Shown piece by piece: positions 4,898 through 18,481 of a stretch of 64,000 nt of DNA. Positions within the stretch are counted from its first letter, which is position 1. Each line of letters starts with the position of its first letter. Made by a program: the position numbers and the translations under genes. This DNA is from Dokdonella sp. (GTDB lineage Bacteria; Pseudomonadota; Gammaproteobacteria; Xanthomonadales; Rhodanobacteraceae): the NCBI GenBank assembly GCA_016712865.1, contig JADJQH010000001.1, positions 278,092-342,091 of the forward strand. Reading direction: 5' to 3'. Below the pieces are notes generated by a model. It was not told the origin of the DNA. It did not search any database and was given only the letters and a program-made list of their open reading frames with translations.

Positions 4898-6262
4898 TCA
4901 TTTGTTGACATCAATGAACGCACATCGCGTGCTTGGAGATGTCGTCGGCGCACCCAGCCGATGTGACAGAGATTGCATCTGGAGGTCGAGGCTGACGTGT
5001 GTGCCACCCCCGTGCAGGGGTCGTACGAGCTCCGCAATGACCAAGCTCGCGGCGACTGCGCCCACGAACGGCGTGGCCACCGCCTTGGTGGCGAGCATCG
5101 TCACTCCGCACAAATCGCCGCTGTCGTGCGCGAGCTGTTGGTAGGCCTCATTGAGCGTGGCGACCCCTTGGCTTGCCGCCTGTGCAGGCCACAGCTCGCT
5201 GGCCGGCCGCGGTCCGGGCAAGGTATGCATCCGCAGGCTGCGGAAGTCGCGGTAACCGCTGCCCAAACCGGCCTCGATCACCAGCGCGAATGCGGCCGTG
5301 TCGAGGTCGCGCCTCGCGGCGATGTTGTCTACGCCAAACAAGGCGACCGTCGGTTCACCTTGCTGCAGGCGGTGGTGTGCGCCGAACCGGCGTTCAACGA
5401 GCTCGATGTCAAAGCCGATCGCCTCCAGGCGGCGCGCCACCACGCGGGTCTTGCGCACCTTGAGATCGTCGGCACCCACCAGAAGGCAGGTACTCAGGTT
5501 CGACGTGGTAACCCGGTCCACGTCTTGGAGCACGAGGCGGGGGCGTCGATCCTGCGGATACGGCAGCATTCCTAGGACCCATGCGTAGGCTTGGCCTAGA
5601 TGTCCTACCCCGACCAGCCACAGGTCGTTGGGCAAGTACGCAAGTCGAGGACCTCGCCATTCGGGCGACTGCCAGTCGGCGACCGCCAACGGATTCCACA
5701 AGGACAGGCCGATTCGGCGGTGGCCTGCCTCGAGTGAGTCTCCGCGTACGTGCGAGAACGCTTCGCTCACCGCTAATGCGCCGGCGCAAACGCCCGCCAG
5801 GGGATTGTCATCGCTCGTGGTCAGATGGCCGCCGCTGCCGACGGGGGCGATTTGCGCGCACCAGCCATCCCACGTCGGTCGAATGGCGAACGTGGCGCTG
5901 GACGGAACCGCACCGTCCCCGATGAGCAGCGACGGAACGTGCGGGGTCGGGGCGTCGACCACCGTGCCGCCCAGTTGCTGCACAACCTGCGCCGTGGGCA
6001 GGCCGGCGAACAGGGGCAACCGAAGGAGGGGGGCGAGGTCGCCATCCACCTCCACGCGGCCAAGGAATGCTCGGGACGCGGTGCTAAGCGCCGTTACGAA
6101 GCACGCTTGGCCGGCAAGGGTGTCCGCCCAGCCCGTGCCCAAGTGGATTCGCACGCGATACTGCTGGAAGAGGGCAAGCGCCGCTTCGGGCGTAGTGGCT
6201 TCGCCGGCATCGAGCGCCAGCTTGGCCAGGCGGTGCATCGAGTCGGAATCGAACTGGTTCAT
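4898..6262 (-). CDS. bilD: E1-like (ThiF-fold) ubiquitin-activating enzyme, BilD-type
   Basis: A 454-residue adenylating enzyme of the ThiF/E1 superfamily. By family knowledge it should adenylate the C-terminus of the Ubl protein encoded three genes upstream and hand it on as a thioester. The C-terminal half is a Rossmann domain with the glycine-rich nucleotide loop GVGHLG (218-223), acidic residues D247/D249 and a TSNLST segment (252-258). Residues 1-210 are a helper domain that I cannot assign. The usual Arg-Gln after the N-L of ThiF proteins is not visible. C259 and C385 (GDLCG) are the best candidates for the thioester cysteine. The start was chosen at 6262 because it overlaps the upstream JAMM gene stop (ATGA). 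It is the last gene of the Ubl-E2-JAMM-E1 operon. Confidence 0.85.
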   Translation of the reverse strand: MNQFDSDSMHRLAKLALDAGEATTPEAALALFQQYRVRIHLGTGWADTLAGQACFVTALSTASRAFLGRVEVDGDLAPLLRLPLFAGLPTAQVVQQLGGTVVDAPTPHVPSLLIGDGAVPSSATFAIRPTWDGWCAQIAPVGSGGHLTTSDDNPLAGVCAGALAVSEAFSHVRGDSLEAGHRRIGLSLWNPLAVADWQSPEWRGPRLAYLPNDLWLVGVGHLGQAYAWVLGMLPYPQDRRPRLVLQDVDRVTTSNLSTCLLVGADDLKVRKTRVVARRLEAIGFDIELVERRFGAHHRLQQGEPTVALFGVDNIAARRDLDTAAFALVIEAGLGSGYRDFRSLRMHTLPGPRPASELWPAQAASQGVATLNEAYQQLAHDSGDLCGVTMLATKAVATPFVGAVAASLVIAELVRPLHGGGTHVSLDLQMQSLSHRLGAPTTSPSTRCAFIDVNK

Positions 6263-6750
6263 GCAGTGTCCTCTGCCGCAGCGAACGTAATGAGCGTGGT
6301 GACAGGCGGGCCGCGAAAGCGCTGCCAGCGATGAGCACCCTGGTACAGATACAGGCCGACATCTTCGAGGTGCACGGGCCCTTGGGCGAAGTGGGGAACG
6401 ATGAGTGCAAGGTGACCGGCGATTGCGAGCATCGGGTTCTCGCTGTCGCTGCGGCTCTGTCCGGCCCCGTAACGATGGGTGTGCACGTCGGCCACCACAT
6501 CGAGGTCGTGGTCGGCGCAGTAGGCCCACAGCCGACCGAAACTGGCGGCGGACAAGTGCACGAAGTCCGCCTGCAGGGCGTCGTGCTGCAGCTGTTCGTA
6601 CGGAAGGAAGTGGGTCGCGACACGCCGATCGCGCTGCACCTTGCCCAGCAGAAAGCCGCCGCTCTCGCGCACCCCCGCACCCTGCTGGCGAAGATGCGCG
6701 AGGGTCGCTTGCCACAACGCAGGGGAGAGCTCAAGCAGCGGCGCTGACAT
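6259..6750 (-). CDS. bilC: JAB/JAMM metallopeptidase (deubiquitinase-like), BilC-type
   Basis: A 163-residue Mov34/MPN-fold zinc peptidase. The full JAMM signature is present: E29 (in RESGGFLLG), H90-x-H92 (DVHTH), then S99-x-x-D102. In ubiquitin-like systems such enzymes cleave Ubl precursors or remove conjugated Ubl. The partner Ubl already ends in glycine, so deconjugation or proofreading is the more likely job here (inference). The start at 6750 (MSAPLLEL) was preferred over upstream in-frame codons because the upstream sequence is an out-of-frame copy of the E2 gene; it overlaps the E2 end by 20 nt. Its stop overlaps the E1-like start. Confidence 0.9.
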   Translation of the reverse strand: MSAPLLELSPALWQATLAHLRQQGAGVRESGGFLLGKVQRDRRVATHFLPYEQLQHDALQADFVHLSAASFGRLWAYCADHDLDVVADVHTHRYGAGQSRSDSENPMLAIAGHLALIVPHFAQGPVHLEDVGLYLYQGAHRWQRFRGPPVTTLITFAAAEDTA

Positions 6751-7201
6751 GGTCGTGGCCTTGCAAGAGGTCGTGGACGACTTCCAGGTAGTGCGAGATC
6801 CCCTTCGCCGGTTTCCAGATGAGCTGGGGATACTGAGACAGCCATGCATCGTGACCGACCAGGCTCTCCCGGTCGCAGGGCAGGTACAGGGCATGTCCGT
6901 TCTTCCACTCAGGCCTGAAGGCCAGGCGCATGCACTCGCCACCGGTGGGCCAGCGTGCAGCGGCCAGGTGACAATCGCCTTCGAGGTCCCAGAAGCCGCC
7001 GGTCGGCGCAATAGCCGGGAAGCCTTTGCAGTTGAGCCGGAGCACGAACTCCTGCCCGTCGGGTGCGAAGACGCCCACGAAGACAAACGGCCAGTCGACC
7101 CGGTGAAATCGCCAGCGCCCCCGATCCTGGCCCGACAGGAAGCGCGCCGACGCGAGGTCGGCGCGCAAGGACAGCTCATCCGGCGATACCTGCGCGGCCA
7201 T
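6731..7201 (-). CDS. bilB: E2-like ubiquitin-conjugating enzyme, BilB-type
   Basis: A 156-residue protein with the layout of prokaryotic E2-like (UBC-fold) proteins. It has a strand-rich core (FVGVFAPDGQEFVLRL at 41-56), a Pro/Gly turn (GFPAIAPTGGFWDL), a late strand LYLPCDR (105-111), then H117, W120, W129 and a C-terminal helix (YLEVVHDLL). C109 in LYLPCDR is the best candidate catalytic cysteine that receives Ubl from the E1; C58, C77 and C90 are alternatives. The start codon overlaps the Ubl stop (TGATG), and the tail overlaps the JAMM gene, so translation of the four genes is coupled. The assignment rests on fold-level pattern plus the Ubl and E1 neighbours. Confidence 0.8.
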   Translation of the reverse strand: MAAQVSPDELSLRADLASARFLSGQDRGRWRFHRVDWPFVFVGVFAPDGQEFVLRLNCKGFPAIAPTGGFWDLEGDCHLAAARWPTGGECMRLAFRPEWKNGHALYLPCDRESLVGHDAWLSQYPQLIWKPAKGISHYLEVVHDLLQGHDHVSAAA

Positions 7202-7707
7202 CAGCCGTTGATCCGGTGTGCAGGCACCAGGTCGAACACGATGGAGCAGTTGGGGTGCTGCACCAGGGCACCAACGTGGGTGTCCATGTCCGGCTGCTCG
7301 TTGGAGCCGGCGATCTGCAAGACGTGCTCAGCGATGTCGCCGGCCTTCATGCCGAACTGGCGCCCAGCCCACTGACGAATGCGACCGATCGTCGTCGCAG
7401 GGCGGAAGCGGTGTTCCTCCGTGCGCCCCCCAAAACGAACCCCGACCGTCACGTGCTTGCAGCGATGCAAGTGGACGCGCACGCCGTGGCCCTGGTTCAG
7501 GTCCTTGACACGTCGAGGCGACGGGGCGTCCTCGTCGTCCGCGTCATCGTCCTCGACGGAAAGCGAAAGCTCTAAGGCGTCGGTGCCAGGCGGCAGCAGG
7601 GCAAGGGCGGCGCGCTTGAGATCGGCGATGGTGGCGTGGCCGTCGATCTCGACCAGCTTGATGTCGGAAAAGTGCTCCGACTGCACATAGACACGGGTAC
7701 TGGACAT
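7201..7707 (-). CDS. bilA: Tandem ubiquitin-like protein (ISG15-like, BilA-type)
   Basis: A 168-residue protein made of two beta-grasp-like halves. The first spans residues 3-82 and is interrupted by an acidic insert, DDDADDEDA (53-61). The second spans residues 83-163 (THIGR-like strand-helix order, then CSIVFDLV). It ends Arg-Ile-Asn-Gly, so a C-terminal glycine is already exposed for adenylation without processing. A double-Ubl modifier heading an E2-JAMM-E1 operon matches the Bil antiphage system, in which the modifier is conjugated to a phage virion protein; that target has not been shown for this protein. A strong ribosome-binding site (AAAGGAG) sits 9 nt before the ATG. A sigma-type promoter motif ends 54 nt upstream. 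It is the first gene of the operon. Confidence 0.87.
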   Translation of the reverse strand: MSSTRVYVQSEHFSDIKLVEIDGHATIADLKRAALALLPPGTDALELSLSVEDDDADDEDAPSPRRVKDLNQGHGVRVHLHRCKHVTVGVRFGGRTEEHRFRPATTIGRIRQWAGRQFGMKAGDIAEHVLQIAGSNEQPDMDTHVGALVQHPNCSIVFDLVPAHRING

Positions 7708-7761
7708 GCGGTGTTACTCCTTTGGGTTGGAGCCGCGCGTTTTTGCGTGGCTCTTAAGGAG

Positions 7762-7791
7762 TAAGTCGCAGTGAATCCCAAAAATCGGAAA
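7762..7791 (-). promoter_or_regulatory. Predicted alternative-sigma promoter of the Ubl operon
   Basis: On the minus strand this reads TTTCCGATTT, then 10 bases, then CTGCGACTTA. Both half-sites and the spacing are identical to those at 12517-12546 in front of the sigma gene, while the 10-base spacers differ. The motif ends 54 nt before the Ubl start codon, where a promoter would be expected. I infer recognition by the sigma factor encoded at 11736-12467; binding by its Cro-like partner is the alternative. Confidence 0.75.
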
Positions 7792-7809
7792 CCAATCCGC
7801 CGCGTGACG

Positions 7810-10800
7810 CTACGCAGGGCAGTACAGGAAGTGCCGGCATCCCGGGCACACCCACGAACTGGGCGCCGCGCTGAACTGACCGACCGATAGTGCCTGCGCG
7901 AAGTGCGTCAAGTTGAAGTCCGGAACCAGATGCCCATACGCCACGACGGGCTCAGTCTGGCGTGTGCTCAGAACATGCAAGCTGCCTTGGAAGCGCAGCG
8001 GCGGGTACGCCTCATTGAGATGTTTGAGCACCCATCGGATGGCCTTGTGCTGCTTGGCCAGTGGGCTGGACGGCTGCGCGCGCACAAAGTGCAAGGTAAC
8101 CGCATTGCCTTGGCGCGTGATGCGGTGTGAAATCACACGAATGGGTAGCCCGTCGCACACCACGTCAACCGGGGGCGCCACCGCCACGCGGTCGGCGCCG
8201 GACCAGGCGCGTCCGGCCTGCAAGAGCTGGTCGGCGTACGCCCGAAGGTGCGGCCTGGTCACCTCATAGTCCTCGGGAAGCCTGCTCAGTTCGAGTTTCA
8301 CGTCGTTCACCGGCGTCGAAACCTCGCCTCCGTGCGGCACGAAAAGCTCGCGCAAGACCGCGGACTCGATGCGTACGGCCGGATGCAATCCCGCCGCTGG
8401 CGTCAGCTGCCTCACTTCGTCGTAGTAGTAGCGACGAGGACACGTGCGGTACGTCACGAACTCCTTCAAGCCCACGGGCAAGGAGGGCCCTTGTGCGGTC
8501 CGGTGCGTGGTGCTGGTGGTGTCGGCCTGGACCCGCGTGCCGACGACACGATCAAGCAAGTGAGAGGCGCGCTGCACCGTAGGCGTGCACGCCGCCTTGT
8601 AGTAGCTCTTCTCCTCGTACAAGGTCAGATGCGAGCGCGCACGCGACAGGGCGACATAGAGCTTGTTTGACGCCTCGGACTTGGCTTCGTCCACGCCGCC
8701 GGCCGTCTGCGTAAACGCAGCGGGAAGCCAGGCTGCGTCGTCGGACCGCTCGAAGTGGCGGGCGTCGACGTCCATCAGGTGAACGGCTTCAAACTCCAGT
8801 CCTTTGCTCTGGTGGATCGTCATCACGGCCACCGCCTCCAGCCGCTCGGCTTCCGGCGGCGGAATGCGCAGATCGCGGTCCTCCGCCAGACGCAAGCGCC
8901 GGCGCAGCCGGGTCAGGAATGTGCCCACGGTCTGGTAGGCGCGGCCACCGTCAGGAACGCGCAAGTAGTAGATGATCTGCCAAAGCGCGAGTCGTCGCGT
9001 CACCGCTTGCAAGTCGTCGCCCGCTTCGTATGCCCCGAGCCATCCGGTGCGATCGAACAGCACCGTGCACGCGACGTCCCAAGGCGAGTCGCGTGCGCTC
9101 AATCCAGCAAAGGTTTCGCGCCACCGCTGCAACGCAACTACGCCCGCGACGGACAGGCCGATCGGCGGAGCGGTGAGCCAAGATAAGGGCTCGGGGCGGG
9201 TACGTCGAAGATGGGCAAGCAGAAGGTCCAGGTCTTCGGCGGGCAGGGCCAATCCCGGCAATTGCGCGATCCGCACGAGCGCACTTCCCGAGCGATCGAC
9301 AAACAATTGCAGCAGCGCCAGCAGGTCTTTCACCTCCGGGCGTTGAAAGATGTCGCCCAGATGCAACACCGGAATGCCGGCGGCCACCAAGGCCGCCGCC
9401 GCGGCATCGCAGGTGTCGTGCCTGCTGGCCAGGATCACCTGGTCGCGATAGGCGACGCCTTGGGCCTGCAGCCCGCGCACGCGAGACCAGCTCGCCATGG
9501 GCGATGCTCGGGTCATCGCAGCTCACAAGTGTCGGACGCAGCCCGCCTTGGCCCCTGATCGGCGCGACGCCGTCCAGCGGAAGCACGCCCTGCAGCGGAT
9601 TGTCGTCGCGGCCAGTGTGCTCCACGAGCCGAACGATCTCCTCGAAGCTGCGCCAGTTGCCGTTGAGTCGAAACACGCGGTGCTTGGGAAAATCATCCTC
9701 GAAGCGAACGATGTTGCGCATTGATGCGCCGCGAAAGCGGTAGATCGCCTGGCGCGGATCGCCCACCACCCACAGGCTGTCGGCGTTGGCCGCGAGCGCC
9801 TTCACCAGCTCGGCGCTGGCGCGGTTCACGTCCTGGTATTCATCGACCAACATGTGTCGGAATCGTCCGACACTGGGCAAGAATTCGCCCATCCCCGCGC
9901 CCAGCGCTCGGGCGGGCAGCATGATGAGGTCACCAAAGTCGACGAGCCCGCCATGGGCCCGCAACAGTGACTCGTAGTGGCGGTAAAGCGTGGCTACGTC
10001 GCGCTCTCTGGCGAGCCGGTCCGCGTCACTGCGAGCGGCGCTGTCTTCCACCATCGTGCCGAACGCCTCGGCATCCAGCAGTTCGTCCTTGGCGCGCTGG
10101 GTCGTCTTGACCACCTGATCCAGCCAGGGCAGCGGATCGCCCAATGGGTTGAACGACCGCAGGGGCAGGCCGTAGATATGCGGTTCGAGGAGGGCGATCT
10201 GCGCCATCTTGTCCGCCACGCCGAACTCGGGGCGCAGCCCGAATCGTTCATGGTTCTTGCGGAGGAATTCCAGCCCGAAGGCGTGAAAGGTCCCCACCCA
10301 CATTTCATGCGCGCCAGGCACCCCTGCGGCCTCGAGGCGGTCGACCAACTCTCGCGCGGCGCGGTTGGAAAACGTCAGGACCAGCAGTTCTGCTGGCATG
10401 GTGCCGTTAGCCAGCAGGTGCTCAATGCGCATGAGCAAGGTGGCGGTTTTGCCGGTACCCGGTCCGGCGACGACAAGGGAGGTCCGCGCATCCGAGCGCG
10501 CGGCATCGCGTTGCTCGATCGTCGGGGACAGCGCTGGCTCCGGCGATTCCTCCGAGATGGCGTCGTGCGGCAGTAGGACAGCATCCAACAGCTGCTGGCG
10601 AACCAGTTCGAGTGGCAGTTCGAGCTCCGCGGCAATTTGGCCCGCCGTCCGACCGGCATCGAACAGGGCGCGCGCCAGAGCGTGGGGCAACAGAAGGTCC
10701 CGCGCGAAGAGGTTGGCTTGCAGCTCGGCCCGCTCACGAGCGCCGTACGCTTCGACGCGCTTGGCGCCGAGGGTGTCGTCCTCGGCCGGATTCAGGTGGC

Positions 10801-11122
10801 TGACGATGACTTTCCGGCAGCCCTCCTGCTCTTCAGGGTGCAGCACCCAGTGCCCGAACTCGTGCGCCACCAGAAAGGCCCGCTCTGGTACGTCCACGTC
10901 ATCGCGGACAATGATTTGGCGAAAGGCGCGGACCAGCACTGCGTCGGCTCCGCTCAACGCTGAATCGTCCGGCCGCGCCAGCGTGATATCAAAATCCTCG
11001 GCGTCCACCGCGGCAATGCACGCGATCAGGTCGCTGGAGCGAATGCCGGTTGGCGTGGCTTCGCCGCAGTGCCGCTCGCGCAACTGCTGCGCCGCTAGCC
11101 GCGCTTGCCGAAACGGTGTCAA
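7810..11122 (-). pseudogene. ImmA/IrrE peptidase - UvrD helicase - Fe-S PD-(D/E)XK-like fusion, split by one frameshift
   Basis: The fusion has three parts. Residues 1-190 form an ImmA/IrrE-type zinc peptidase (HEFGH at 87-91 plus a downstream ELQANLFA helix). Next comes a superfamily 1A helicase (Walker A GPGTGKT, GTFHAFG, Walker B VDEYQD, GDPRQAIYRFRG, and later MTIHQSKGLEF). The C-terminal domain resembles the AddB/Cas4 nuclease, with cluster-type cysteines (TCPRRYYYDE, then CPGC-x5-C at the end). The nuclease catalytic D...E-x-K residues are not evident, so it may only bind DNA. One missing base near 9477-9484 shifts the frame after GELVSR; the other frame continues at VRGLQAQGV. Both sides are well conserved, so sequencing error or very recent loss is likely. 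The start overlaps the upstream Cro-like gene (ATGA). Confidence 0.85.
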
Positions 11123-11739
11123 GACGGGCGGCCCCGATCCTGCATCGCGCGCAGCCGGGCCTTTTCTGCCTCGTCAACGGCGAGCGCACTGATCGCGTCC
11201 TCCCACGACTCGCCGGCGGTCATGGTCGGCTTGTCCGCAGCTTTGTAGCTGCGATGCAACGCCACCTGGGGCCCCAGTTCTTCCGAAAGCAATGTCACTG
11301 TGACATTCAAGAACTGCGCGAGTCGGTCCAGCACCGCCCGAGGCGGATCGATGATCATCCGCGTCAGAATTTTGCTTAGAAGCACCGTCGAGCCCACACC
11401 AGTCGCCTGTGCGGCCGACCTGAGGCGTTGCCCGGCCAGCGCCCCAATCGCCTTGCGAACCGCGTCAGCGCCCTCCAGGACGGGCGGGGCATACAGTTGA
11501 TTGAGCACGCGGCTCTGCAGGCGCATGACGGAAGCGTCGGAAACCTCCAGTTCGGACTCGGCCGGTTCGGGCAGGGCGTCTTGCGCCATCCAGAGCGCGG
11601 AGAACTCCAAGATCTCCTCGCGATACTCCGCGTGCGCTTGACAGGCTTGGACGATCATCTCGGGCGTCGGCGCGTTGTCTTGCTGAAACAACGCGTCCAA
11701 CACGTCCTCGAGCGAGGGATTACGGTTGGGCGAAGTCAT
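11119..11739 (-). CDS. Cro/C1-like helix-turn-helix partner protein of the sigma factor
   Basis: A 206-residue protein without a family name that I recognise. Residues 95-155 resemble a degenerate Cro/C1 helix-turn-helix (QRLRSAAQATGVGSTVLLSK, then DRLAQFLNVTVTLLSEEL). The N-terminal 50 residues are helical and acidic. The gene overlaps both neighbours by ATGA junctions: the sigma factor upstream and the ImmA/IrrE-UvrD fusion downstream. In ICEBs1-type modules an ImmA peptidase inactivates a Cro/C1 repressor. By analogy this protein could be an anti-sigma factor or repressor cleaved by the neighbouring peptidase. That role is inference from context only. Confidence 0.65.
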   Translation of the reverse strand: MTSPNRNPSLEDVLDALFQQDNAPTPEMIVQACQAHAEYREEILEFSALWMAQDALPEPAESELEVSDASVMRLQSRVLNQLYAPPVLEGADAVRKAIGALAGQRLRSAAQATGVGSTVLLSKILTRMIIDPPRAVLDRLAQFLNVTVTLLSEELGPQVALHRSYKAADKPTMTAGESWEDAISALAVDEAEKARLRAMQDRGRPS

Positions 11740-12467
11740 ATGTTGAACTCCTTGTTAATCTTGTCTTTGATGCTTCTTTCGTAGTTGTTGATGGTGCGCG
11801 GGTTGACGCCGAGTGCTGCGGCGATGTCCTTGATCTTCATCTGTTGGCGCCACAACATCACGAAGACCGAATACTCCTTGCGCGTGAGCAGGGTCTGCAG
11901 GAGAGCATGGAACTGCTCGAACTCCCGCGAGTGGCCAAGGGCCACATCCGGCGTCCATTCGTCCTGCAAAGCGGTGTCCCCGTCGCCGCCGTCCTCGTCG
12001 CTGCCTTCGTATTCGCGCTCCGCTTGGTGCCATTCTTCGAGGCTTTCCATCCGCGAGCGACATTGCGCCAGGATCGAGCGCAAGAACGAGATCGACTGGT
12101 TCTTGAAAAAGACGCCGAACCGGCGCGCGGCGAACTGCGCGTTCTTGTCCTTGAGCAGGCGTTCCCATACGTACGCGGACAACTCGTGGGCGGCCTCGTC
12201 GATGTGGGAAAAATGCTGGGGGACCAAGCTGTTCTTGAGTGCGAACGACCGGGAGCGCCGCAATATCCGCCGCGATAGCGCGCTGCTGAACAGCCCAACG
12301 CGGGTCGTGCTCCCCGCGGCCCGAGCGACCTGGAACTGTCGTACGAGCTGCTCCTCGCGGATGAAAAGCGGATCGTCCCAGTCTGCGCAACTCAGGCGCT
12401 CGACCAGTTCCCGGTCCGCCAAGTTGTCCAGATTTTCTGTTTCAGATGTGTCCATCGCGTCGTCCAT
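11736..12467 (-). CDS. ECF-like RNA polymerase sigma factor
   Basis: A 243-residue protein. The C-terminus is a clear sigma region 4: LTRKEYSVFVMLWRQQMKIKDIAAALGVNPRTINNYERSIKD has the dimer-free helix-turn-helix layout. A region 2-like helix pair (AAHELSAYVWERLL, FFKNQSISFLRS) lies at about 90-140. An acidic linker (DEDGGDGD) separates them. Longer in-frame starts exist up to 12536, but they would place the start inside the 12517-12546 promoter motif, so I chose MDDAMDT at 12467. It heads the operon sigma, Cro-like, ImmA-UvrD. It differs from the chromosomal ECF factor at 57036-57557 and probably reads the repeated TTTCCGATTT-N10-CTGCGACTTA promoter. Confidence 0.8.
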   Translation of the reverse strand: MDDAMDTSETENLDNLADRELVERLSCADWDDPLFIREEQLVRQFQVARAAGSTTRVGLFSSALSRRILRRSRSFALKNSLVPQHFSHIDEAAHELSAYVWERLLKDKNAQFAARRFGVFFKNQSISFLRSILAQCRSRMESLEEWHQAEREYEGSDEDGGDGDTALQDEWTPDVALGHSREFEQFHALLQTLLTRKEYSVFVMLWRQQMKIKDIAAALGVNPRTINNYERSIKDKINKEFNI

Positions 12468-12516
12468 CTTGTTAGCAGGGTCCCCACCGCCACCGTGGCG
12501 TACATCCCCTAGTACG

Positions 12517-12546
12517 TAAGTCGCAGGCCGCGACACAAATCGGAAA
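12517..12546 (-). promoter_or_regulatory. Predicted auto-regulated promoter of the sigma operon
   Basis: The minus strand carries TTTCCGATTT-N10-CTGCGACTTA, with both 10-bp boxes identical to those in front of the Ubl operon at 7762-7791. It ends about 49 nt before the chosen sigma start. Its position before the sigma gene itself suggests positive autoregulation. Confidence 0.75.
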
Positions 12547-12642
12547 TCGGGTCTTCACCGACGGCGAGGGCACTGAAAGCGGTTTCGAGGCACGCTTCCG
12601 GGATCGCCGGGCCAGAGTGCGGTCGACGCAATGGGCGGGCGG

Positions 12643-12894
12643 CTACTTGCGCTCCCCAGGATGCTGCGTGAGCACGCTGCCGGCCAAGGTCTTGGTGCTA
12701 GCGTTGGTCCGGCCGTCGTTGAGCGCCTTCGCTGCGGTTCGGACCGTGGTCGCCGTGGATGACTTCGTCGTGCGCGCCGGGGCGAGGGCGCTGCCCGCCA
12801 GACTCTTGGAGGTCTTGCTGGCGCCACTGTTTCGCAGCACCAAGGACGCCGTGCGCATCACCTTGTGACCTGGGCACTCGTTCTTTTTGGTCAT
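12643..12894 (-). CDS. Small basic Ser/Thr/Lys-rich protein
   Basis: An 83-residue, strongly basic protein starting MTKKNECPGHK, with GGAG-like bases upstream of the ATG at 12894. The rest is low in hydrophobic residues and carries two related motifs, TSKSLAGSAL and STKTLAGSVL, towards the middle and the C-terminus. I do not recognise a function. It sits between the subtilisin-like gene (74 nt upstream) and the sigma operon (downstream, same strand), so it is probably transcribed with the protease. A substrate or partner of the protease, or a nucleic-acid-binding protein, would fit its charge, but nothing shows this. Confidence 0.55.
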   Translation of the reverse strand: MTKKNECPGHKVMRTASLVLRNSGASKTSKSLAGSALAPARTTKSSTATTVRTAAKALNDGRTNASTKTLAGSVLTQHPGERK

Positions 12895-12968: not shown

Positions 12969-15167
12969 TCATGGGCTGCCACCCACAGGAACCTGCACCT
13001 CGACAGGCAAGGTCTGGAGGACCGGGAATTCCGTCTGGATCCGCGTCATGAGATCGACGACCCCTGGGGCCTGCAGCGTCACGATCAGCGCGTAGGGCAT
13101 AGGCACGGCGTCTTCCGTGCGGACCGCTTCACTCTCGTCGCGCACCTGGTAGTTGATGTGGAAGTAGGGCGATTCCAGCTCGTCGGCATTGACCGTGCAA
13201 GAGTTGTTCAACACGGTGTCCCAGCGCATGGCGTCGCGACGCAGTTCTTCTTCGGACTTGTACATGCCGGTGCCGAACAGGGGCAGGCTGTTGCCCGGCG
13301 CCTTGTAGCAGCGCACCCACAGTCCCGCCCGCGTGTAATTGATTGCGTGGGCCGAATCGACCGGCGCGCGGTAACAGAACGTCGCGCCAATGCGCACCTT
13401 GGTGCCGGGAGGCAGACCTTTTGGCACGGGGATCAACGCCTTTTGCGGATGACCAGGACGCGTGATGCCCTGGTATACCACGCGCACGACATCGAGCGGT
13501 GTATACAAAATCCCCTCCGGATCGAGAGGAATTCGCCCCCAGCCCACATCCGCTCGCTTGTGACTGCGCCGGTACTCGGCCGCGTTGATCAGCAGGGCCT
13601 GCAGCGTGATCGGGGCAAAGCGCGACTGACTGAGAACGTCGATTCCCACCGCAGTGCGCAGGGCCAAGGGGCTCGCAAAGCTGGTGCCACCCACGGCAAC
13701 GACGCCACCGGCCAACGGGCTGTACACCGGCAAGGGCTCCCCGTTGGATCCTCCGAAGGCAACCACATCAGGTTTCACAAAGCCCGGACTGCGCCCGGGT
13801 CCGGTGGCGCTGTACGGGGCGCGATTCCATTTCTTTCGGCGGGTGTCAGCTGCGCCGATCGCAAACACGTTCACGGCGTCTCCCGGGGGCTGGATGCGGC
13901 CGAGCTCTCCGCCCAGCGCACCGTTGTTACCGATGGCCGCCGTACACAACGTGCTCCCATCAGCGAGTTCGGTGTCCAGTCGCGAAGTCCACTCGTGGAT
14001 GTCGTCATCAAAGAAGGTAGCCACAGGGCCGAGGCTGATGTTGGCGAAGCGGTAGGGGCGACCCGCGGTGCGGGCACTGCGCAAGGCAGTGACGATGCGA
14101 TCGAGCACGTCGAGGGCCTGCTCCGGGCTGTCCGTCGTGGGCAGCACGCGATGGTGCTCGACCGCCCACGGTGGCGTGGGCAATATCCCTTGCTTTGGGT
14201 CGACCGGACCAAACAGCAGCGCGGAGGTGACGTTGACTCCATGGGTCAGGTCGCCGACGGCGGCCGGTGGCAAACCTGAAGCGGCCAGTTCGACCACGTG
14301 ACTACCAAACGCTTGCGCGGTACCGCCGTCGAACACCGCCACGCGCGGCCCGTGCGGGGTCGGCATCGGCGCCGGCAAGCTCAACTTGGGATACGAACGG
14401 CCCAAGGCTGCCGTTAGATCGAGTTCCTCGCGCAGGCGCGGCATCGAGCGCACCAGCCGGATGCGTTCGAAACGAGCGAGCTCCGGCACCTGCGCTGCGG
14501 GCAAGTGCACGGCCACGAAGGCCAGCCCGGGGACGAAGCGGAAGCCCCTCAGACTGATTTCACCGCCGAGCTGCAGCACCAGCGTCTGGAACGCGGCGAG
14601 GATGTCGGCGTCGTTTTCTCCTGCGTGCAAGGTGACGTGCACGAAATTCGGCCATGGAGTTTCGGTGTCCAGCCGCAGCTTGGCGTTGCTTGCATAGGCG
14701 TGAATCGACTCGATGTGGGTGAACTCTTCCTGGCGGCCTTTACCGATCGCCGGATCCTGGAGGTAGCGATCCATCACCTCAAACTCCTCTGGCGTTCCTG
14801 CCACCAGAATTTCGGCGGTGTCCTGCGCCCCCGGCTTGCCACCTTGGCTGATCCGTGGCGTGACGCGGGTCGTTCGCGAACCCAGGATGGTCAAACCCGC
14901 GTCGCGGAGGATGTGGGCGGGGAAGTGGGTTTTCGCAAGAAAGGTGGGATGAAGGGTTAGTTGCGCCGTAATCTCACCACGGGGGGAAAATCTACGGGAC
15001 ACTGCTCGCGCCGCGCCGGCGACGGCGGCCAACTGAGGATGCAATGTCTCGCGCGCATCTGCGATTGAGTAGGGGTGCCACTTCGGTCCGCCCCCCTGGG
15101 GCCACGACAAGGAACCGATGAGTTCTTGCCCGTTGGCTATCAGCACGTTCCGAGGGGTTGCGGCCAT
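12969..15167 (-). CDS. Subtilisin-like serine protease (S8), intracellular
   Basis: A 732-residue protease. The S8 catalytic triad is visible as D280 (VAVFDGG), H309 (DLTHG) and S496 (GGTSFASP), with the oxyanion Asn near 414 (AIGNNG). There is no signal peptide, which suggests a cytoplasmic enzyme. The N-terminal 270 residues are a non-catalytic region without a recognisable domain, and a beta-rich extension of about 170 residues follows the catalytic domain. The start at 15167 has a good ribosome-binding site (TAGGAGAA) and lies 10 nt after the AAA+ gene stop. An AAA+ ATPase paired with a subtilase recurs in accessory regions. The ATPase may unfold or gate substrate for the protease (inference). 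Confidence 0.9.
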   Translation of the reverse strand: MAATPRNVLIANGQELIGSLSWPQGGGPKWHPYSIADARETLHPQLAAVAGAARAVSRRFSPRGEITAQLTLHPTFLAKTHFPAHILRDAGLTILGSRTTRVTPRISQGGKPGAQDTAEILVAGTPEEFEVMDRYLQDPAIGKGRQEEFTHIESIHAYASNAKLRLDTETPWPNFVHVTLHAGENDADILAAFQTLVLQLGGEISLRGFRFVPGLAFVAVHLPAAQVPELARFERIRLVRSMPRLREELDLTAALGRSYPKLSLPAPMPTPHGPRVAVFDGGTAQAFGSHVVELAASGLPPAAVGDLTHGVNVTSALLFGPVDPKQGILPTPPWAVEHHRVLPTTDSPEQALDVLDRIVTALRSARTAGRPYRFANISLGPVATFFDDDIHEWTSRLDTELADGSTLCTAAIGNNGALGGELGRIQPPGDAVNVFAIGAADTRRKKWNRAPYSATGPGRSPGFVKPDVVAFGGSNGEPLPVYSPLAGGVVAVGGTSFASPLALRTAVGIDVLSQSRFAPITLQALLINAAEYRRSHKRADVGWGRIPLDPEGILYTPLDVVRVVYQGITRPGHPQKALIPVPKGLPPGTKVRIGATFCYRAPVDSAHAINYTRAGLWVRCYKAPGNSLPLFGTGMYKSEEELRRDAMRWDTVLNNSCTVNADELESPYFHINYQVRDESEAVRTEDAVPMPYALIVTLQAPGVVDLMTRIQTEFPVLQTLPVEVQVPVGGSP

Positions 15168-15177
15168 GCGAATTCTC

Positions 15178-16269
15178 CTACTTGTGCAGCCAGCGTGAGA
15201 CGGTGGCGGCGCTCACGCCAACATGCTTAGCGATTGCGCGTGTAGACAAGCCATCGGCATGTAGGCGTTTGACCAGCAGCCATCGCTCACTTTCGGCTGG
15301 ATCGGTCGCACTAGGCAGTGCCAATCGAATCAATACGTCGTCCAGCTCGCCGCCGTTGATGGCGATTTCGCGCCGCGCCCGGGTCACCAGCCGACTCGCG
15401 TCTGAGAGCGGCTTTCCGGCGAATGCCGGCGCGATCTGCCGGGAGACTGCGTGGCCGGCCCCCAAGTTGGAAAGCAAAGCCTCAACCTGACGGGTCGTGC
15501 TGTCGGGGAAGCGCAGCCAGATATCAAAACGGCGAAAGACGGCGCGATCTAGCAGTTCCTCGTGATTGGTGGCCGCCACAAGCAACGATGTCCCTGGCCA
15601 TTCGTCGATGGCTTGCAGCAGCACGTTGACGACGCGCTTGAGCTCGCCAACGTCTTGGCCGTCGTCCCGTCGCTTGGCCAAGGCGTCGAATTCATCTAAC
15701 AACAAGACGCACGGCTGAACCTTGGCATGAACCAGCACGCGGGTGAGGTTGGTGCCGGTCTTGCCAAGCAGACTGTTGACGGCGGCCGCAAGGTTGAGCG
15801 TGATCAAGGGGAAGTTCAGCTGTTCGGCAAGATAGGTCGCGGCGAGGGTTTTGCCGACGCCAGGTGGTCCGGATAGCAAGACGGTGCGAGAGGGCGACAG
15901 GCCCGCTTCACGCAGACGATCGGCATGCCGCCATTCATTCACCAGGCCGCCCAGGATTTCGTCGACCTTTGGAGGCCACACGGGCTCGTGCTCAAGAAAG
16001 GCGGGAAACTGTATTGAGGTCAAGGCGAGGTTGCTGTCGGAGTCGACGGGGCTGACCAATGCTTGCTGAGCCGCGCCGTCGCGTGCGAGCGTCAGGCGAG
16101 AACTGTTTGCCTCGGTTAGCGCTCTAGCTAGCAAAGGTGTCAAGGCAGACTTCTCTCGCCGCAAGCGGGCAATCAATCGGCTCAAGCGCAACTGGAACGC
16201 AGCAGCGTTGCCGGCGCAACCCTCCCGGACAAGCGCCAACCATTCGGCCTCGGAAGATGGTATCGACAT
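15178..16269 (-). CDS. AAA+ ATPase with C-terminal helix-turn-helix
   Basis: A 363-residue AAA+ protein with Walker A GPPGVGKT, Walker B LLLDEFDA, sensor 1 (VAATNHEELLDRAVFRRFD, containing the arginine finger) and a small helical lid. The last 25 residues form a Hin/resolvase-like helix-turn-helix (STRAIAKHVGVSAATVSRW), so the protein may bind DNA and control its own promoter. The start MSIPSS at 16269 follows AGAAGG by a normal distance; an alternative start MKQK lies at 16287. It is the first gene of the AAA+/S8/small protein unit. Two 8-bp direct repeats sit just upstream and are a candidate operator. Confidence 0.88.
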   Translation of the reverse strand: MSIPSSEAEWLALVREGCAGNAAAFQLRLSRLIARLRREKSALTPLLARALTEANSSRLTLARDGAAQQALVSPVDSDSNLALTSIQFPAFLEHEPVWPPKVDEILGGLVNEWRHADRLREAGLSPSRTVLLSGPPGVGKTLAATYLAEQLNFPLITLNLAAAVNSLLGKTGTNLTRVLVHAKVQPCVLLLDEFDALAKRRDDGQDVGELKRVVNVLLQAIDEWPGTSLLVAATNHEELLDRAVFRRFDIWLRFPDSTTRQVEALLSNLGAGHAVSRQIAPAFAGKPLSDASRLVTRARREIAINGGELDDVLIRLALPSATDPAESERWLLVKRLHADGLSTRAIAKHVGVSAATVSRWLHK

Positions 16270-16287
16270 GGGAGCCTTCTGTTTCAT

Positions 16288-16305
16288 GTGTTGCACAGTG
16301 TTGCA
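16288..16305. promoter_or_regulatory. Direct repeats upstream of the AAA+ gene (candidate operator)
   Basis: GTGTTGCA occurs twice, at 16288-16295 and 16298-16305, one helical turn apart. Their position just before the AAA+ start, and the helix-turn-helix at that protein's C-terminus, suggest an autoregulatory operator. Confidence 0.45.
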
Positions 16306-16350
16306 TGTCATTATGAAACAGCGCAAGAGCCCCTCGAGGTGCCTACCGGG

Positions 16351-17433
16351 CTAGGGTTCGAGCAAGCGCGCCGCTGGGTTGTCTGCTGCTCCACCGGTTT
16401 GAAAATACCCAATCACACTCGAAACGGCCCGATGTTCCGTCATAGCCATCACCGCGCCCAATGCAATGCCTTGCCGCCCGGCCTCGGTCACAAACCCCGA
16501 CCGAAGACTGTGTCCCGCAAAGTCACCCTCCAAACCGGCGAGTCGCGCACGCCGCTGGACGATTTCGCCAACGGCGGCCGGTGAGAGAGAAGGGCCAACG
16601 CGAGTCTTCCAGAGCCGCCGAAATATCGCCCCCTCAGTGATCGCGGCCCGTTCCAGCCAGGCGGCAAGTGCATGCGCACTACGATCAAGAATGGGCTTGT
16701 CGGGCGTCGACGCCGATGTTGGCCCGGCCTGCTGTGTCTTGCTGTGTTCAAGTCGGAAGATGAACGAATCTAGCCCAGTGCGTCGCAGATCGTGCATTTG
16801 CGCCGCCGCAATCTCGCTGCGCCGGCGGCCGCCACTGGCAAACCCAAAATGGAGCAAGGCGCAATCGCGGAGGCCTTCAAGAGATTCATCGCACGTGGCC
16901 AGCATCGCTTCGAGTTCGGTCTTGGTGATCGCGGTTTTCTTGGCCGGCCGCTCACCGCGCTTGACGGCGGCTCGTCGGGCGCGGCTCAGCACCGTGCGTA
17001 CTGCTGGCTGTTCGCACGGATTGGCTAGGCGCTTGAGTTTGTGGGCCGTCGACAGCACCGCCACGCGATGGACCACGCTGGTCAGCTTCCAAGGGCCGAC
17101 CTTTACCTTCAGGCCGGCGGTGACCAGGGCCCGATCGATTTCGGATGGCAGCTCCCACGTCAAACCGGTTTTGCCGCGGCGAGCGACGTGATCGACGACA
17201 AATTGGATGACGATCGCCTCGTCGAGGGGCAGGGCGAGTTCGACGCCATAGCGGGCGCGGTGCCAGCCGGCCCAGTAGCGCAAGGCGGTGGCGTAACTCC
17301 GCGTCGTATTGGCGGCTGCGGCTTCGGCGAGCAGCTCACGCACCGCCTCGGCGGCACTGGCAGCCAGTTGTGCCGGCAGGATCATCGCGTGGCTCGGCGA
17401 AGCGAGGGCAGGGATGCGCTTTTTCTGTTTCAT
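16351..17433 (-). CDS. tnpS: Tyrosine recombinase, TnpS-like
   Basis: A 360-residue tyrosine recombinase. The catalytic residues are visible as Arg in GGRRRSEIAA, H-x-x-R in GHSLRSGF, a later His (TEHRAVSS) and the nucleophile Tyr in VIGYFQTG near the C-terminus. The start MKQKKRIP at 17433 was chosen over upstream in-frame codons because those would run into the intergenic regulatory repeats. It is divergent from a KfrA/TnpT-like gene, with a 102-bp spacer that holds a dyad resembling a crossover core. This tnpS-core-tnpT layout is the cointegrate-resolution module of Tn4651-type transposons. No tnpA is visible in this half of the window, so the pair is either the end of a transposon running out of the window or an orphan. 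Confidence 0.85.
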   Translation of the reverse strand: MKQKKRIPALASPSHAMILPAQLAASAAEAVRELLAEAAAANTTRSYATALRYWAGWHRARYGVELALPLDEAIVIQFVVDHVARRGKTGLTWELPSEIDRALVTAGLKVKVGPWKLTSVVHRVAVLSTAHKLKRLANPCEQPAVRTVLSRARRAAVKRGERPAKKTAITKTELEAMLATCDESLEGLRDCALLHFGFASGGRRRSEIAAAQMHDLRRTGLDSFIFRLEHSKTQQAGPTSASTPDKPILDRSAHALAAWLERAAITEGAIFRRLWKTRVGPSLSPAAVGEIVQRRARLAGLEGDFAGHSLRSGFVTEAGRQGIALGAVMAMTEHRAVSSVIGYFQTGGAADNPAARLLEP

Positions 17434-17453
17434 AATATGTAGTCTATAATATG
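17432..17453. promoter_or_regulatory. Direct repeats ATAATATG in the tnpS-tnpT spacer
   Basis: ATAATATG is found at 17432-17439 and 17446-17453, a 14-bp period, overlapping the tnpS-like start. It is likely a binding site for the divergent KfrA/TnpT-like protein or part of the tnpS promoter. A comparable repeat pair precedes the second tnpT at 42579-42601. Confidence 0.4.
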
Positions 17454-17470
17454 ACATAGGCGGCGTACCA

Positions 17471-17491
17471 GCGATAATCATCCCTTATCGC
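17471..17491. other. Predicted TnpS crossover core (resolution site) 1
   Basis: Perfect inverted repeat GCGATAA-N7-TTATCGC in the spacer between the divergent tnpS-like and tnpT-like genes. Short arms around a 7-bp spacer are the usual layout of a tyrosine-recombinase core. The GATAA-N7-TTATC part is shared with the dyad at 42511-42533 beside the second tnpT. Confidence 0.6.
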
Positions 17492-17535: not shown

Positions 17536-18481
17536 ATGGCGCGTTCCGGCATCACCCAGGCGCAAGTCAATGAAGCCGCCGACGCACTGCTGCGCGCCGG
17601 CGAACGCCCTACGATCGAGCGCGTGCGCCAGGTCCTCGGCACCGGGTCACCCAACACGGTCGTGCGCCTATTGGAAGTCTGGTGGAGTGAGTTGGGGCAA
17701 AGACTGCTGGAGCATGAGGCCAAGTTAGCGCTGCCGGATGCCCCTGATTCCGTCGTTACCGCTGCCTCGCAGCTCTGGCTCACCGCCCTTGATGCGGCAA
17801 AAACTATCGCTTTGAGCGCCCTGGAAGGGGAGCGGGAGCAACTAGCCGCCGAGCGGCAAGCGCACATTGAAAGCGCACAGATCCTCGAAGCGGAATCCAC
17901 TCACGCGCGGGAGCAGGCCGAGCTCGCTACGGCCGCACGCTCTCAGGCTGAGACGCGGTTCGCGGATCTTGAACGCCTCGCCGCGACACAGTCGGCCCAA
18001 CTGCTGGACCTCCAGGCGCAGCGGGACGCCGTTCAATCGGATCGCGACGCCCTGACGTCTCGAGTAAGCGAACTTCAAGGAACAATTGAACAGATCCGAA
18101 CGGATGCAACAGCGGAACGGCACGCTTTGGAAACCCAGGCGCGGCTCAATGAAGACCGCTGGATGCAGGAAGTGGATCGCGGTCGCCAGGAAGTCGCGCT
18201 ACTGCAGAAAACGCTCTCACGCCGGGAGTCAATCCCGGCACCCGCGGTTGAATCGACCGACGAAGATCGAAAACTTCGCTTCGTGCCCAAGGGCCTTGCA
18301 ACCTTGCAAACGCTTGGGTATCACAGTCGAAGAGCTTGCCGCTTTGCTAGGTGTGAGTCCTCAGAGCATCTATAACTGGCAGACGGGGAAATCCGTTCCC
18401 AGACGAGCGCAGCTTGAGAAACTGGCGTCCATTCGTGGCATGGGTAAGCGTGAAGCGGAAGCTCTCCTCGCGAGCAACTGA
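17536..18481 (+). pseudogene. tnpT: KfrA/TnpT-like DNA-binding coiled-coil protein, frameshifted
   Basis: The N-terminal 60 residues match the KfrA-type DNA-binding domain (GITQAQVNEAADALL, then GTGSPNTVVRLLEVWW). They are followed by a long Glu/Gln/Ala-rich coiled coil (about 95-230). In the initial frame the protein ends unnaturally at 18375. A one-base shift near 18303-18312 restores a C-terminal Cro-like helix-turn-helix (LGITVEELAALLGVSPQSIYNWQ) that runs to 18481. The restored protein would be about 314 residues with DNA-binding domains at both ends. Beside the divergent tnpS-like gene it is best read as TnpT, the accessory protein of Tn4651-type cointegrate resolution. Whether the shift is real or a sequencing error is undecided. 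Confidence 0.75.

Follow-up and report, generated by a model that had tools for sequence, protein, structure and literature searches.

A putative sigma-factor cassette precedes the BilABCD operon of Dokdonella, where its promoter-like sites are paired, and, in other loci, multiubiquitin operons

In autoregulated extracytoplasmic function (ECF) sigma/anti-sigma pairs, the sigma gene has its own promoter upstream and precedes a small coupled regulator gene; sigma gene then anti-sigma gene is the usual order. A comparable arrangement lies in a stretch of 64,000 nt of Dokdonella sp. (contig JADJQH010000001.1, positions 278,092 to 342,091; hereafter the window), where a sigma-like gene with a promoter-like site of its own precedes a small coupled gene. 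Whereas the anti-sigma factor of the ECF pairs is a membrane protein, the partner here is XRE-like, is accompanied by a DNA-helicase protease, and the target would be a protein-conjugation operon, namely the bacterial ISG15-like (Bil) operon. As in the known Bil operon, all four genes are present in the order BilA-B-C-D; the difference is that a cassette of sigma factor, protein 2 and ImmA/IrrE-UvrD fusion precedes them, together with a dedicated pair of promoter-like sites.

In the available portions of the papers cited here, several related switches are described. In CalpL-CalpT-CalpS of type III CRISPR, a protease cleaves an anti-sigma factor and releases a dedicated sigma factor (PMC12751052). 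A defence-locus protease that frees a dedicated sigma factor would be common to both systems, although CalpL-CalpT-CalpS uses a Lon-SAVED protease sensing cyclic tetra-adenylate (cA4) and has no ubiquitin-like operon; no Lon or SAVED match was listed for the scanned cassette proteins, and the likeness is one of design. CapP, an ImmA/IrrE-type protease, cuts the helix-turn-helix (HTH)-type repressor CapH on binding single-stranded DNA (ssDNA), and CapW or CapH + CapP stand beside 219 of 544 Bub operons and CapK + CapS beside 59 (PMC13373217). The likeness consists in an ImmA/IrrE-type protease and an HTH protein beside immune operons, and three Bil loci of our set are annotated with such pairs. 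CapH + CapP differ in that they have no sigma factor, comprise a separate small protease without helicase and act by de-repression, whereas here the ImmA domain is fused to UvrD and a sigma gene leads the cassette. In PprI/IrrE-DdrO of Deinococcus, an ssDNA-activated ImmA/IrrE metallopeptidase cleaves an HTH-type repressor (PMC10904395), again a metallopeptidase with an HTH-type target, but with no sigma factor, helicase fusion or ubiquitin-like genes. ECF sigma genes also occur beside EACC2/caspase conflict systems (PMC8195603), i.e., within a predicted immunity neighbourhood as here, but with other partner genes and with neither a ubiquitin-like operon nor a promoter analysis. The available part of PMC13373217 does not describe a sigma factor as regulator, that of PMC12839542 contains nothing on a sigma-controlled Bil operon, and no description of one was among the open-access literature matches listed, a coverage that does not extend to the main Bil/Bub papers. 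What would be new is a protease-released sigma switch wired to bacterial ubiquitin-like conjugation; such sigma switches themselves are already known from CalpL-CalpT-CalpS.

The features of the locus are as follows (E-values in brackets):
12517-12546, minus strand: promoter-like bipartite motif 1, TTTCCGATTT-N10-CTGCGACTTA, upstream of the sigma gene.
11736-12467, minus strand: predicted sigma-70-family (ECF-like) sigma factor of 243 amino acids, from profile and AlphaFold2 (AF2) model.
11119-11739, minus strand: protein 2 (206 amino acids) with an XRE-like middle domain, a proposed anti-sigma factor or repressor; its start overlaps the sigma stop (ATGA).
7810-11122, minus strand: ImmA/IrrE (M78) metallopeptidase-UvrD helicase fusion with a cysteine-rich C terminus (Peptidase_M78 3.4e-11, UvrD 2.2e-57).
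7762-7791, minus strand: promoter-like bipartite motif 2, with the same boxes, upstream of bilA.
7730-7753, minus strand: conserved inverted repeat or leader hairpin just after motif 2, in the bilA leader (window 7717-7761).
7201-7707, minus strand: BilA, ubiquitin-like protein (PADLOC PDLC03844 BilA 9.1e-56).
6731-7201, minus strand: BilB, E2-like, DUF7665 (PDLC03845 BilB 1.2e-59; PF24702 2.4e-69).
6259-6747, minus strand: BilC, JAB deconjugase (PDLC03846 BilC 2.8e-58).
4898-6259, minus strand: BilD, E1 (ThiF) (PDLC03847 BilD 7.4e-172).

Because all four genes match PADLOC BilA-D (E 9.1e-56 to 7.4e-172), this is a true Bil operon; an earlier note on this DNA had called it Bil-type. That note had also described an identical bipartite motif before the sigma gene and before the Bil operon, with differing spacers, both sites ending about 50 nt before a start codon and with no third copy in the window. 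All of this held: motifs 1 and 2 show 0 mismatches over 20 box positions while their spacers differ, they end 49 nt before the start of the sigma gene (ATG 12467) and 54 nt before that of BilA (ATG 7707), and no further copy with up to 3 mismatches was found in the window, nor was there a match in 100 dinucleotide shuffles. Scanning the whole genome (3.75 Mb, 8 contigs), as the earlier note had suggested, recovered only these two copies at ≤3 mismatches and none of the reversed control pattern; no additional site pointing to a wider regulon was found at this threshold. The sigma gene does lie between the two sites, as had been stated, but it directly follows the upstream one, and protein 2 and the helicase are bracketed as well.

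Sigma homologues were obtained from plasmids (6 records) and genomes (12 loci) and from no viral contig. Removal of repeats left 13 distinct close-type loci for which both upstream regions were available (excluded were L008 and L020, the same locus as L007; L009, near-identical to the window; L014, whose contig ends before bilA; and H1, H3, H7, H9, H23 and H68, further records of plasmids already represented). These loci stem from beta- and gammaproteobacteria and one metagenome-assembled genome (MAG) labelled Rhodospirillales, with sigma identity down to about 36%. The core common to these relatives is TTCCGATT-N12-TGCGACTTA (17 box positions), and it is kept at both sites with at most one mismatch each in 13 of 13 loci. 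Homologous loci that keep both genes without the motif, which the earlier note had named as evidence against its reading, were thus absent from this set. Of the 17 box positions, 12 do not vary at all among the 26 sites and five are conserved in 23-25 of them, compared with 10-20 of 26 for the commonest base at spacer positions; with spacings of 10-14 permitted, 12 gave the best fit in every case. In L012, both sites carry TTCGACTTA in place of TGCGACTTA, a minor joint change within one locus, and the truncated L014 has the sigma site.

The motif is also restricted to the locus. In 16 locus-bearing genomes or records (some sharing one locus; L013 was not among the loci covered), 41 of 43 matches at ≤2 mismatches fall inside the locus, 37 of them upstream of sigma or bilA and 4 where bilC ends, while the reversed pattern gave 1 match in all. 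The two outside matches, each with 2 mismatches, are in G147 and G148. Among 147 relatives including the window's genome, the sigma gene was present in 2, and the motif at ≤1 mismatch in the same 2.

Some loci carry extra copies. The Variovorax locus L007 has three tandem motif copies before sigma (11758-11908). A third, weaker copy of the TTCCGATG-N12-TGCGACTTA type (1-3 mismatches) lies at the 3′ end of bilC, before bilD (L016, 16184-16212), with equivalents in L007, L013, L015, L017, L018 and L019; it may be an internal promoter or a coincidence of coding.

More distant loci were found with BilB. The search yielded 22 plasmid records; in genomes, BilB was present in 3 of 399 of the order of G153, including G153 itself (Trinickia fusca, locus L016), and, in the window's class, in 1 of 369, namely the genome of the window itself. 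The divergent set consists of 16 further plasmid loci and two genome loci (L071, L072). Divergent sigma and protein 2 are present in 9 of the 16 plasmid loci (L055-L058, L061, L063-L065, L068; those of L056, L058 and L061 were recognised through tblastn matches to the others) and in L071. In the others, an IS256 gene occupies the place of sigma (L062, no sigma match found), another HTH gene is present (L066), annotated HTH + ImmA pairs like CapH + CapP are found (L067, L069, L070), or an integrase-type gene precedes bilA (L072, no sigma match). L059 and L060 gave no sigma or helicase match in the ~7.4 kb before bilA. These two S. medicae plasmids keep an L061-type site ~44-77 nt before bilA, which may be an orphan target.

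The close-type motif is absent from all 18 divergent loci at ≤2 mismatches (spacing 11-13), with a single match at 3 mismatches in L072; in the four loci with other regulators (L066, L067, L069, L070), it is absent even at ≤3. A lineage-specific bipartite motif of their own can instead be read by eye at both places in all 10 loci with an intact divergent sigma gene (for L063, by eye only), so that here too the scan of homologous loci agreed with the earlier note. The motifs read by eye are:
L055: TTTCCGGGTT-N12-GCGATCAA.
L057/L058: TTCCGG-N17-CGATTA.
L061/L063: TTCCGA-N17-TTGTAR.
L065: CCCATTTTT-N12-CGCTNTCTT.
L071: GCTTCATG...TTGGGGATT.

The pairing was assessed per locus by searching the regions upstream of sigma and of bilA for their best-matching 33 nt, with 200 shuffles each. 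For 21 of 23 Bil loci p was ≤0.05, whereas L012 (0.333) and L063 (0.065) exceeded this value; the best window of L055 spans the -35 side only. In a cross-lineage version, one representative was taken from each of nine lineages and every pairing was maximised alike. The own pairs had a mean of 22.9/33, the cross pairs 18.3; the own pair was highest in 6 of 9 rows and tied highest in 3, and among 362,880 permutations only the true pairing reached the own sum. The same outcome was seen with hand-picked boxes, for which box identity was 16.2/18 (own) vs 10.0 (cross) and spacer identity 4.2/11 vs 3.1, a comparison biased by the hand-picking of the sites. Motif similarity also rises with that of the sigma proteins (Spearman 0.50, p 0.043, again with hand-picked sites). 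Drifting together in this way is expected of a sigma factor and the promoters it reads, and it would be hard to explain with an unrelated regulator.

A wider sigma search returned 25 records, five new ones of which were read (H44, H46, H57, H59, H65) and three of which were already in the set. Sigma, a protein-2-sized gene and a UvrD-type helicase were found to precede multiubiquitin, ThiF and DUF6527 genes as well. L074 encodes Multi_ubiq (7.3e-61), DUF6527 (1e-23) and an M78 + UvrD fusion, L073 and L076 are annotated as multiubiquitin-type loci, and the genes of the cyanobacterial plasmid L077 are arranged alike. The helicases of L074, L075, L076 and L077 contain HExxH and helicase motifs; that of L073 is annotated shorter, and the one of L075 is followed by an IS66 gene. 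The occurrence of the cassette is not confined to Bil loci. In a scan run without chance control, all four multiubiquitin genes examined were preceded by a TTACCG-N17-CGATTA-type site at ≤1 mismatch. No paired site before sigma was found in these four loci by the 33-nt test; a site inside the sigma gene of L073, L074, L075 and L076 was discounted, as it reads as conserved coding sequence. Because the multiubiquitin loci show no paired sigma site, autoregulation appears, as far as seen, to belong to the Bil version only. The self-amplifying response proposed in the earlier note hence agrees with the 23 Bil loci and does not extend to the four multiubiquitin loci. Inducibility, which the note also put forward, and transcription from the sites are inferences.

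By a sub-cutoff profile match and its predicted fold, the gene after motif 1 looks like a sigma-70-type factor. The protein matches TIGR02937 over residues 91-240 with E 2.6e-8 (33.7 bits, below the cutoff of 42.9), and its AF2 model matches sigma factors over residues 37-243. All 12 homologues matched Sigma70_r4_2 at E≤0.1 (best 8.6e-8); a region 2 model was absent from the best 25 of 26 families listed for them. The best hit of a PDB sequence search had E 0.0023 (VraR/GerE-type HTH and FliA). A phage origin was rejected, with 0 sigma relatives and 0 exact motif matches in viral_contigs.

Protein 2 directly follows every intact sigma gene encountered (by tblastn in Bil loci, by gene order in L073-L077). 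Its own sequence gave no Pfam match at 0.001 and nothing under E 0.1 in the PDB sequence search, and a fold search returned a weak SinR-like segment with 0 matches at E≤0.001. Of 12 homologues, 6 matched HTH_31 at E≤1 (best 9e-4), the window copy being below the cutoff. From position and sequence, protein 2 is probably the anti-sigma factor of its sigma or a co-repressor.

The third gene of the cassette is frameshifted in the window near 9480, leaving open frames 11122-8951 and 9516-7810. L009, a Lysobacterales MAG with an otherwise 99.9% identical locus, has 2 more bases near 9480; because it reads on in one frame at that point, intact copies exist, and the fusion is intact in L005, too. The net 2-base loss relative to L009 may be an assembly error or mean that the sensor has truly been lost. 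All 25 helicases read have the HExxH, Walker A and DEYQD motifs, together with a C-terminal cysteine cluster; the reads of L012, L016 and L018 contain 3, 2 and 2 stop signs (one terminal), either from the chosen upstream start or from real breaks. The helicase end is PD-(D/E)XK-like, with PF12705 at 2.7e-8 in L057 and 1.5e-8 in L074 but only 0.0066 in L005. By analogy with the systems above, the fusion probably is a DNA-sensing protease that frees sigma.

Conserved sites, fixed spacing, lineage-wise co-change and restriction to the locus are all observed. Very probably, the sites are promoters read by the cis-encoded sigma factor, which would drive its own operon (sigma, protein 2, ImmA-UvrD) and BilABCD. 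Such a dedicated promoter had been proposed in the earlier note, and paired sites, pairing specificity, sigma profile and predicted structure support it. The core promoters would consist of a -35-like TTCCGATT and a -10-like TGCGACTTA, with 16 nt between TTCCGA and CGACTT. Protein 2 would keep sigma, or the promoters, silent; the helicase-fused ImmA/IrrE peptidase would sense abnormal DNA (ssDNA, ends, phage DNA) and cleave protein 2; and freed sigma would amplify itself and turn on Bil. For the release steps, i.e., silencing by protein 2 and sensing and cleavage by ImmA-UvrD, we see about even chances.

The boxes could alternatively be no core promoter but an operator made of two direct repeats of TSCGAYTT, 19 nt apart, and read by an HTH regulator, either protein 2 or the sigma-like protein as an ordinary activator. 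The two boxes do resemble each other (TCCGATTT / TGCGACTT in the window motif), the best Pfam match of the sigma-like protein is GerE (LuxR-type HTH), and protein 2 is partly XRE-like. We nevertheless regard an operator as improbable: no consensus sigma-70 promoter was found across window positions 7600-12800, the spacing of 16-17 is promoter-like, the structure model resembles sigma factors over residues 37-243, and 7 nt (L061) and 11 nt (L064) separate the matched stretch from where sigma is annotated to start, which leaves little room for another promoter if these starts are right. That the identical boxes are a remnant of a recent duplication of the upstream region was suggested by identity at all 20 positions in the window. 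With differing spacers, and with the pair kept where sigma is only 36-63% identical, this origin is next to impossible and was rejected, as relatives keep the boxes and not the spacers.

Two further alternatives accept that sigma reads the promoters and concern its release. Protein 2 may be a CapH-like, DNA-bound repressor, for example at the repeat after motif 2, that ImmA-UvrD cleaves as CapP does CapH. The XRE-like segment, the conserved repeat and the annotated HTH + ImmA pairs at the same place in L067, L069 and L070 make this a serious though somewhat less probable option; on the other side, the repeat could equally be an RNA hairpin, and protein 2 adjoins every intact sigma gene even without the helicase, in the usual sigma/anti-sigma order. 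The latter holds in L068 and L071, which carry sigma and protein 2 without an adjacent ImmA-UvrD match. Together with the frameshift of the window copy, the rest of whose locus is kept, these two loci also speak for ImmA-UvrD as an accessory repair or effector enzyme, with sigma freed by another signal. This we consider rather doubtful, given the catalytic and helicase motifs in all 25 helicases read and the known DNA-damage switches formed by ImmA/IrrE peptidases with HTH repressors (PMC10904395; PMC13373217, in their available portions).

In L068, a minus-strand gene (6135-7022) stands in the place of ImmA-UvrD. From its start, we take it to be PIN-like.

In the 13 close-type loci, 8 pairs of the bilA leader hairpin were examined: 91% of cells are paired, a value reached in 0 of 500 shuffles, and one of the 8 pairs is mostly unpaired. 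Three of the 8 pairs changed on both sides, as many as in 49 of 500 shuffles. When the leaders of the window, L005, L010 and L011 were folded, their first bases could also pair with the ribosome-binding AAGGAG. The repeat may be an operator or a 5′ mRNA hairpin.

Directly upstream of motif 1, the window contains a pair of IetA/IetS-like genes for an AAA ATPase and an S8 peptidase (12969-16326). Such a pair also lies upstream of the cassette in L005, L009, L010, L011, L014, L016 and L018; no motif before it was among the matches listed at ≤2 mismatches. Just beyond the IetA-like gene, a recombinase-like (16351-17481) and a KfrA-like (17536-18375) open reading frame, both candidates by eye, suggest a mobile or island setting. 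In L005, an integrase is annotated near the cassette.

Taken at its widest, our proposal is a portable cassette of sigma factor, anti-sigma factor and DNA-sensing protease-helicase with a private promoter code, which would govern BilABCD and multiubiquitin-ThiF-DUF6527 operons in alpha-, beta- and gammaproteobacteria and one cyanobacterium. It would respond to DNA damage or infection, with self-amplification in the Bil version; the helicase-fused ImmA peptidase would free sigma, and in each lineage sigma and promoters would have diverged jointly, giving different codes; we judge the chances that this entire picture is right to be evenly balanced. Bacterial ubiquitin-like defence would thereby gain a concrete on-switch, made of a promoter, a sigma factor, a likely silencer and a likely sensor. 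One conjugation operon would be seen under two alternative control cassettes, the sigma type and the HTH + ImmA type, and the co-drifted sigma/promoter pairs would constitute a natural series of potentially orthogonal sigma-promoter systems.

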